A stretch of DNA of 53,999 nt from Bacteroidales bacterium (GTDB lineage Bacteria; Bacteroidota; Bacteroidia; Bacteroidales; PUMT01): the NCBI GenBank assembly GCA_007133565.1, contig SLMM01000115.1, positions 1 to 53,999 of the forward strand, read 5' to 3'. This document shows positions 15,643-53,733 of this stretch, one piece after another. A program made the position numbers and the translations under genes. The notes beneath the pieces are model-generated. The model saw only the letters and a list, made by a program, of their open reading frames with translations. It was not told the DNA's origin and searched no databases. Within the stretch, counting starts at the first letter, position 1. Each line of letters opens with the position of its first letter.

Positions 15643-16479
15643 TCACGTTGGTCCAAGCCGGTATACCTCTGACCTTACCTCTTCCGCCCACCTGGCAAGC
15701 GGTTTGGATTTGTCGAAACGGCTCCATGGAATCGGTTTGCCAATCGTTACAGTTATTTTCTGCCCGCTTTGCCTGAACATTTCATCAGGCAGGTAAAACA
15801 TCTCTATATTGGCTTTGATACCCAGATTTTTACGCAGATTCGCAAGTCGGTAGAAGAACCTGGAGTTTTTCCCTTCAAAATGCACAGGGACAATATCCCG
15901 GTTGAAATCGATCGCCTTTTTAATAAAGTTTTTCTTCCATTCAAGATCGGTTATAACCTTTCCCTTTTTTCTCGAACAGATACCCGCAGGGAAATACAGT
16001 ACCTGGTAGTCTGAACTGTACAGCTCTTCTATTTTCTTAACGTATTCGGCTGACTGGCGTCCATGTTTGTTTACAGGCACGAAAACAGGTTCAAGGTTCC
16101 TCAGGTTGAGAAGCAGGTCGTTTACAATGAATTTTACCTTTTTATGATATTTACCGATGATATCCAGAAACACCATCCCGTCGAGTCCCCCAAGGGGGTG
16201 GTTTGAAACAAAAATGTACCTGCCCCTGAGGGGTATATTTTCTTCTCCCCTTACAGTGTAGTCGATACCCATATGCTCAAGGATCACCTTTATGAAGTCC
16301 AGGCCGTATTTATCACTAAACCTTGCCAGGGCTTCGTTTATTTCATCCTGGTGTATGGTTCGCTTAATATAACTCAGTATGAAGCCCGGCAGCAGTTTAT
16401 ACAAACGCGGGTTTTTGTTCCGAAAAATCGCGTCTACATCTATTTTTACGGGATCCTGCCCGTTATTCTGTTTGGTCAT
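15643..16479 (-). CDS. glsA: PlsC-type O-acyltransferase, GlsA-like
   Basis: The 278-residue protein has the lysophospholipid acyltransferase signature in VSNHPLGGLDGMVFLD (91-106). His94 and Asp100 are separated by five residues (HX5D) rather than the canonical HX4D, as in the hemolysin-like/OlsA-type branch. Further family blocks are NLEPVFVPVNKHGRQS and YFPAGICSRKKGKVITDLEW. In Bacteroides GlsA adds a second acyl chain to N-acyl-glycine to give glycine lipid; an O-acyltransferase of phosphatidic acid synthesis is the alternative. It is the first gene of the pair, 163 bases ahead of the glsB ATG, and is divergent from mraZ with about 145 bases between the two start codons. Confidence 0.7.
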   Translation of the reverse strand: MTKQNNGQDPVKIDVDAIFRNKNPRLYKLLPGFILSYIKRTIHQDEINEALARFSDKYGLDFIKVILEHMGIDYTVRGEENIPLRGRYIFVSNHPLGGLDGMVFLDIIGKYHKKVKFIVNDLLLNLRNLEPVFVPVNKHGRQSAEYVKKIEELYSSDYQVLYFPAGICSRKKGKVITDLEWKKNFIKKAIDFNRDIVPVHFEGKNSRFFYRLANLRKNLGIKANIEMFYLPDEMFRQSGQKITVTIGKPIPWSRFDKSKPLARWAEEVRSEVYRLGPT

Positions 16480-16521: not shown

Positions 16522-16540
16522 TTGATAAAAAAGTTATCAA
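16522..16540. promoter_or_regulatory. Perfect 7-bp inverted repeat between glsA and mraZ
   Basis: TTGATAA (16522-16528) and TTATCAA (16534-16540) are perfect inverse copies with a five-base spacer. The element sits between the glsA -7 and the MraZ boxes, where a repressor or activator site could act on either gene. No binding protein can be named from sequence. Confidence 0.35.
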
Positions 16541-16541
16541 C

Positions 16542-16581
16542 AAAGTGGCGAAAAATGGGGTAAAGTGGTTTAAAGTGGATA
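16542..16581 (+). promoter_or_regulatory. MraZ-box array upstream of mraZ
   Basis: Four direct repeats lie at exact 10-base intervals: AAAGTGGCGA (16542), AAAATGGGGT (16552), AAAGTGGTTT (16562) and AAAGTGGATA (16572). Three copies of AAAGTGG are identical and the second differs at one base. MraZ autoregulatory sites described in E. coli (TGGGN repeats, five-base spacers) and Mollicutes (AAAGTG[G/T] repeats) have the same core and the same 10-base helical phasing. The array lies about 45 bases ahead of the mraZ start, where bound MraZ would control the whole dcw transcript. Confidence 0.75.
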
Positions 16582-16623
16582 TTTTTTTTTATTTTTACCT
16601 ATTAAGATTTAATTGTAAGCAGT

Positions 16624-17085
16624 ATGGCAACGTTCATTGGTGATTATACATGCAGGATTGATGCAAAGGGCAGGGTTATACTCCCCTCGGCATTTAAAAA
16701 GCAGATGCCCTCTGCAGCCAATGATAAATTCGTGGTTAAGAAGGATGTCTTTGAAAAATGCCTTGTATTGTTCCCTATGGACGAATGGGACAGGCAGAAC
16801 TCGATCATCCGCTCAAGGATAAATCCCTACAACAGGGAGCACAGCCTTTTTCTGCGGGGTTTCTATAAAGGAACAGCAGAGGTGGTTCTTGATGCCAGCA
16901 ACAGGATACTCATACCTCGCCGGCTCCTGGATCAGGTGGGAATTGACACCGAAGCTGTACTTGCAGGGCAGGACGGCAAGATAGAGATCTGGAGCAAGTA
17001 TTTATATGATGAACAAGCAGGTGAGGCAGACAATTTTGCGGCACTTGCAGAAAAAATTATGGGTGACCCTGAAAGAAATACATAA
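16624..17085 (+). CDS. mraZ: Transcriptional regulator MraZ
   Basis: The 153-residue protein carries two SpoVT/AbrB-like MraZ repeats: DYTCRIDAKGRVILPSAFKK (about 7-26) and GTAEVVLDASNRILIPRRLL (about 82-101). MraZ forms a ring-shaped oligomer that binds direct repeats upstream of its own gene and controls the dcw operon. Such repeats are present at 16542-16581. It is the first gene of the cluster, and rsmH starts 3 bases after its stop. The ATG at 16624 opens the conserved MATFIGDYTCRID start. Length is normal for the family in Bacteroidota. Confidence 0.96.
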   Translation: MATFIGDYTCRIDAKGRVILPSAFKKQMPSAANDKFVVKKDVFEKCLVLFPMDEWDRQNSIIRSRINPYNREHSLFLRGFYKGTAEVVLDASNRILIPRRLLDQVGIDTEAVLAGQDGKIEIWSKYLYDEQAGEADNFAALAEKIMGDPERNT

Positions 17086-17088
17086 GCC

Positions 17089-17991
17089 ATGGTTTACCAT
17101 AAACCTGTTCTTTTGAAGGAGAGTGTTGACGGATTAAATATCCGTCCGGGAGGGACTTATGTGGATCTTACTTTCGGTGGTGGCGGACACTCACGGGAAA
17201 TACTTTCTCGTTTGGATAGTGGAAGGCTCCTGGCTTTTGATCAGGATGCGGATGCTGAGGCAGAAGCCATGAAGATTTCTGACAAGAGGTTCATGTTCAT
17301 AAGGAGCAATTTCAGCTTTTTCCGCAACTTCCTCAGGTATCACAAAATTAACCTGGTAGACGGCATAATGGCCGATCTGGGTATTTCATCGCATCACATT
17401 GATGACCCGGAACGCGGTTTCTCTTTCAGGTCTCACAGCGTTCCCGATATGCGCATGAACAGAAATTCAGGGATAACTGCCATTGATGTTCTCAATAATT
17501 ACAGTTTAGAAGACCTGGAGCGGGTACTAGTTATGTACGGTGAGGTGCCCGGTGCGGAAAAAGTGGCCCGGGCAATAGTTCAGCGGCGCGAAGAAAAGCC
17601 GTTTCACGGCATGGAAAGCCTTCTGGGGGCCGTTTCCGGATTTGCTCCCCGCCGTCAGGAGAGCAAGTATCTTGCCCGGATATATCAGGCATTGAGGATA
17701 GAAGTTAATAATGAACTGGAAGTTTTAAAGCAGATGCTTTTACAGGTGCTGCTAAGCTTAAGGAAAGAGGGCCGGCTTGTGGTTATATCCTATCATTCAC
17801 TGGAGGACAGGATGGTAAAGAATTTCATGCGAACGGGAAAGCCGGAAGGCAGTCTTGACAAGGATTTCTTTGGCAATCCTCTTGTACCTTTCCGTCTTGT
17901 AACAAGAAAGGTTATAGTACCGGATGACTCTGAGATAAGGGAAAACAGCAGGGCAAGAAGTGCTAGGCTCAGAATAGCAGAACGTAATTAA
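17089..17991 (+). CDS. rsmH: 16S rRNA (cytosine1402-N4)-methyltransferase
   Basis: RsmH (MraW) methylates N4 of C1402 in the 16S rRNA decoding site using SAM. The 300-residue protein has the N-terminal YHKPVLLKESVDGL signature, the SAM-binding stretch YVDLTFGGGGHSREIL (24-39), GIMADLGISSHHIDDPERGF, and the C-terminal ISYHSLEDRMVKNFMR. All are standard for the family. It sits between mraZ and ftsL as in most bacteria. The following 143 bases before ftsL form the only sizeable gap within the cluster. Confidence 0.97.
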   Translation: MVYHKPVLLKESVDGLNIRPGGTYVDLTFGGGGHSREILSRLDSGRLLAFDQDADAEAEAMKISDKRFMFIRSNFSFFRNFLRYHKINLVDGIMADLGISSHHIDDPERGFSFRSHSVPDMRMNRNSGITAIDVLNNYSLEDLERVLVMYGEVPGAEKVARAIVQRREEKPFHGMESLLGAVSGFAPRRQESKYLARIYQALRIEVNNELEVLKQMLLQVLLSLRKEGRLVVISYHSLEDRMVKNFMRTGKPEGSLDKDFFGNPLVPFRLVTRKVIVPDDSEIRENSRARSARLRIAERN

Positions 17992-53626: not shown

Positions 53627-53733
53627 TTACAATCTGCAGTCAAACGGAAGCAGCAGCGGTAATTTTTTAAGTAATCGGTGCTGGTTGCGCCCTGAGTTGT
53701 TGATAAATTTATGCGTTAATGGGCTACCATAAA

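Follow-up and report, generated by a model that had tools for sequence, protein, structure and literature searches.

A candidate composite control site in the dcw promoter of class Bacteroidia, joining a MraZ operator array to a DnaA-type box

Results

Genes and repeats at the head of the dcw cluster

The window, a stretch of 53,999 nucleotides from a Bacteroidales bacterium (GenBank assembly GCA_007133565.1, contig SLMM01000115.1), carries mraZ followed by rsmH (mraW) and, as judged from translations, further dcw genes (Table 1). The gene that the first-pass annotation had placed behind a repeat array is a genuine mraZ. Its product is 30% identical to E. coli MraZ and contains both D-x-x-x-R signature motifs (D13-R17 and D90-R94), which are invariant among 12 homologues, and solved MraZ structures are on record. 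The MraZ scan itself used an alignment of closer homologues, the 12-member alignment being too diverse. The four repeats described in the same annotation are present as claimed, with three exact copies of AAAGTGG and one single-mismatch copy at steps of exactly 10 bp. They immediately precede mraZ, where the dcw cluster begins, with 45 bases between the end of the array and the start of the gene, and show the hallmarks of a MraZ operator, namely direct repeats, a GTG core, a period of about 10 bp and at least three units. The annotation had likened the repeats to known MraZ sites of two types; the Mollicutes AAAGTG[T/G] site is the better fit, and TGGG of the E. coli type is found in unit 2 only.

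Table 1. Features of the mraZ promoter region, in window coordinates.
Feature	Position	Strand	Basis or remark
glsA-like acyltransferase gene, divergent	15643..16479	-	shares intergenic region with array; not tied to box
A-tract flanking the box, conserved	16527..16532	+	columns -14 to -10 of the 77-locus alignment
DnaA-type box TTATCAACA	16534..16542	+	abuts array, last A common to unit 1; conserved in class
MraZ operator unit 1, AAAGTGG (7/7)	16542..16548	+	sequence; kept at the same place in relatives
MraZ operator unit 2, AAAATGG (6/7)	16552..16558	+	sequence; close relatives repeat the G-to-A change at position 4
MraZ operator unit 3, AAAGTGG (7/7)	16562..16568	+	sequence
MraZ operator unit 4, AAAGTGG (7/7)	16572..16578	+	sequence
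Probable -7 promoter element TATTTTTA, Bacteroidota type TAnnTTTG/A	16590..16597	+	position after last unit, conserved
mraZ, presumed reader of the array	16624..17085	+	NCBIfam MraZ, 2e-37
rsmH (mraW), second gene of the dcw cluster	17089..17991	+	NCBIfam TIGR00006, 4.6e-92

Counted alone, the heptamer shows no enrichment in the window (6 observed vs 9.1 expected), which would suit an origin of the repeats by chance or as a compositional product of an AT-rich promoter. The departure from chance lies instead in the in-phase arrangement of the units: the four-unit array scores 27 of 28 matches, whereas dinucleotide shuffling of the entire window, repeated 20 times, never gave more than 19; no second site in the window scores 24 or more on the four-unit pattern. 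The exact pair AAAGTGGnnnAAARTGG has a single genome-wide occurrence, at this array. It is likewise genome-unique and located at the mraZ promoter in four further genomes; in a fifth, the copies at mraZ carry one mismatch. As the array is also restricted to a period of 10 and kept throughout the phylum, the probability of a chance origin is vanishingly small, and we consider it ruled out by conservation.

The array is conserved across the phylum and lost together with mraZ

A mraZ gene was present in 51 of 60 relatives and in 186 of 198 genomes of the phylum. When the regions upstream of mraZ were aligned, as the first-pass annotation had proposed, the 10-bp array proved to be kept in nearly every relative across the phylum. 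With a lax definition (300 bases), all loci but one in the order had an array of 10-bp period before mraZ (order, 48/49; remainder of the class, 41/41; other classes, 48/48). A strict definition (150 bases), the only one for which the counts were compared with shuffles, gave 39/49, 38/41 and 35/48, respectively, with a shuffle value of about 1. Arrays of at least three units have a period of 10 in 65 loci, and periods of 8, 9, 11 and 12 in one. The array was also found in 77/77 loci of a set built from titled records, which partly overlaps the first locus set and in which the closest members are Bacteroidales metagenome assemblies.

Natural knock-outs are provided by 19 genomes of the order that have rsmH but no mraZ before it. 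An array of at least three units is present in none of these (0/19), as compared with 56/73 of the mraZ-bearing relatives, and a weak unit pair occurs in 2/19 (shuffle mean, 1.2). Because the array is conserved and is lost where mraZ is lost, we assign it at the sequence level as a MraZ operator, and the four repeats taken alone almost certainly represent one. Conservation of this operator in the phylum, which the first-pass annotation had put forward, is thus supported both by the array before mraZ across classes and by its absence where there is no mraZ. MraZ is known to bind such repeats and to regulate its own operon (PMC7761207, PMC5138195, PMC8475190 and works cited there); binding has been demonstrated in Burkholderia (PMC7761207) and, as reported in PMC8475190, in Mollicutes.

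Several mraZ loci have individual peculiarities. In three of them the array lies ∼180 to 270 bp before the mraZ start, a distance that makes an insertion or a different start codon likely. In eleven Flavobacteria-like loci mraZ apparently starts with TTG, a weak start codon, and in three members of the phylum the mraZ open frame spans 240 to 350 amino acids vs the usual 150 to 190.

A DnaA-type box adjoins the first repeat

Across class Bacteroidia a 9-mer, TTWTNMACA, adjoins the array. Most loci place it at an offset of -8 or -9 from unit 1, so that the box and the first unit adjoin or, as is usual, have one base in common. In the window's order the 9-mer that abuts the array reads TTATCAACA or TTATTAACA, and sister lineages have TTATCCACA or TTTTCCACA there or close by, in either orientation. 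The latter two are the textbook DnaA box. Exact matches to TTWTNCACA occur in sister lineages; the box of the window, TTATCAACA, is not such a match and has A at position 6, as is found in this order, and for this reason we call it DnaA-type rather than a canonical DnaA box. Within 70 bp 5' of the array, TTWTNMACA was detected in 41/47 loci of the order, 30/41 of the rest of the class and 4/48 of other classes, with shuffle values of 3.7, 2.4 and 2.4, respectively, and the box is present in 77/77 loci of the titled set. The first-pass annotation is supported on the operator but was incomplete: it missed both this conserved box, joined to unit 1, and the fact that the operator is unusually placed with respect to the promoter.

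The rigid offset from unit 1 is what would be expected of one protein's footprint, and TTATYAACA could on that ground serve MraZ as an outer half-site or as a sequence to wrap, the whole region being a MraZ operator only. We regard this as very improbable. The box is kept in 12/19 of the mraZ-less relatives, where mraZ and the array are gone (all inverted; shuffle value, 2.4), and it is therefore not a MraZ half-site. Against the same reading stand its occurrence in inverted orientation, its enrichment at dnaB and dnaA promoters (see below) and its absence beside the MraZ array in other classes (4/48; shuffle value, 2.4) and in E. coli.

We also considered whether the box could serve the divergent glsA-like gene and rejected this as the main reading. 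A glsA-like divergent neighbor was found in 0/27 of the class loci examined; since the neighbor at that place differs in those loci, the box goes with the dcw side. Two further occurrences were noted. A second copy of TTATCAACA lies at 53698-53706 of the window, ∼55 bp ahead of a minus-strand glycosyltransferase gene, and is probably due to chance, and one genome has adjacent TTATCCACA and TTATTCACA sites ∼180 bp upstream of mraZ.

The operator precedes the probable -7 element in Bacteroidia

Among loci with a TAnnTTT[AG] element, its start falls 10 to 13 bp past the last unit in 41/44 loci of the order and in 28/29 of the rest of the class; in other classes none was found at that place. In those classes TTGAC is located 25 to 37 bp before the first unit in 32/48 loci. 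The operator of Bacteroidia thus sits just upstream of the -7 element, whereas in E. coli and in other classes of the phylum it is downstream of the -10 element. Because the -7 element follows the array here and the repeats follow the promoter elsewhere, Bacteroidia have the operator on the opposite side of the core promoter; its placement sets them apart from other classes, with the operator sequence itself unchanged. A sigma-70 scan found no forward promoter and a search of Rfam gave no match, and we therefore do not propose a leader RNA.

A site upstream of the -7 element is a place where activators can also sit, and MraZ reportedly plays different roles in distant organisms (PMC7761207), so that the array could be an activator site of MraZ rather than a repressor operator. 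We consider this rather unlikely. The last unit ends 10 to 13 bp before the -7 element, over -33, so that a ring bound there would be expected to block the polymerase. Moreover, MraZ acts as a repressor in E. coli, and its loss in M. genitalium leads to higher dcw transcripts (as reported in PMC8475190).

The box at replication genes and the DnaA recognition helix

TTWTNMACA is enriched upstream of dnaA (40 vs 12.5) and of dnaB (41 vs 3.8), and in the window's own genome a stretch of ∼45 bp ahead of dnaB holds three TTTTNAACA-type boxes. In Flavobacteria-like complete genomes, TTATNMACA-type pairs ∼20 bp apart precede the HU gene at five loci and dnaB at another four, the gene names at these loci coming from reading translations. 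These box pairs look like a replication regulon. At the dnaA loci of several Flavobacteria-like genomes there are few or no boxes. Clusters of five or six TTWTNCACA boxes in two genomes may be replication origins. In the window's own genome, four paired-box sites were inspected as possible origin markers and rejected, as one pair falls within a coding ORF and 0/4 are part of a larger box cluster.

The recognition helix of DnaA reads DHATV in 29/30 genomes of the order, as it does in those Flavobacteria-like genomes that have TTATYAACA; of the genomes with TTWTNCACA, most have DHSTV or DHTTV instead. Three genomes are exceptions. The residue at the varying position is Thr435 in E. coli DnaA. 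Because few independent families contribute, this apparent covariation of the helix with the box sequence is suggestive only.

The departure from the classic consensus at position 6 in this order would be accounted for if the box were read by another regulator of replication and division genes. Such a reader is unlikely given that exact TTATCCACA and TTTTCCACA occur in sister lineages, that the targets dnaA, dnaB, HU and mraZ are the content expected of a DnaA regulon and that the box covaries in part with the DnaA recognition helix. From these comparisons of sequence, we think that DnaA probably reads the box joined to the array.

Discussion

Taken as a whole, the region is quite likely a composite control site of the dcw cluster in which an autoregulatory MraZ operator is joined to a DnaA box. 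The MraZ ring would set neighboring subunits on the successive 10-bp units and cover the -33 region immediately before the -7 element, and RNA polymerase would thereby be kept off the promoter, with repression of mraZ-rsmH and of the division and wall genes behind them. From the arrangement of operator and promoter we infer that MraZ likely covers -33 and represses its own operon. If TTATCAACA is a DnaA box, its junction with the first unit means that DnaA could bind beside MraZ, in cooperation or in competition with it, and so tie dcw expression to the replication initiator. We hypothesize, with good comparative support, that DnaA positioned next to MraZ modulates the repression.

An operator of this type on its own is of an already known kind; what is new is the fused DnaA-type box and the shifted position of the operator. 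In the open-access literature searched, we found no earlier report that places a DnaA box in the mraZ promoter of Bacteroidota or describes its fixed fusion to a MraZ operator. The coupling of replication to division genes in bacteria is an old question, on which little was found for Bacteroidota. If the proposal is true, the replication initiator and the regulator of the division cluster act side by side in an arrangement that is kept across a whole class and open to a direct, simple test, and dcw expression would be linked directly to chromosome copying via DnaA. At its broadest, and at a little under even chance in our estimate, the proposal would make the dcw promoter of class Bacteroidia a built-in DnaA/MraZ switch with fixed spacing, through which division and cell-wall genes respond directly to the replication initiator, and would have the DnaA box drifted to TTATYAACA in much of the class, along with a change from Thr/Ser to Ala in the recognition helix of DnaA.

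Comparison with known systems

The E. coli mraZ1p promoter resembles the window in having GTGG repeats at 10 bp directly before mraZ and a homologous MraZ. It differs in that the repeats follow a TTGACA...TAAACT promoter, as read from the sequence, whereas those of the window precede the -7 element, and no DnaA-type box is found in the 150 bases before E. coli mraZ. The Mollicutes AAAGTG[T/G] site (Fisunov 2016, cited in PMC8475190) has the same core, the same direct repeats and, like the array here, is the sole occurrence in the genome; it belongs to a different phylum, and the passages of PMC8475190 on this site mention no adjoining DnaA-type box. The MraZ site of Burkholderia cenocepacia likewise consists of four 7-nt repeats with 3-nt spacers but lies downstream of the -10 element and overlaps the transcription start (PMC7761207). 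As for DnaA boxes in promoters, such as those of dnaA autoregulation, the likeness is in the motif, TTWTNMACA being close or equal to TTWTNCACA, and in its location at replication-gene promoters; the box described here is set apart from them by the A at position 6 in this order and by its fusion to a MraZ operator at a fixed distance.
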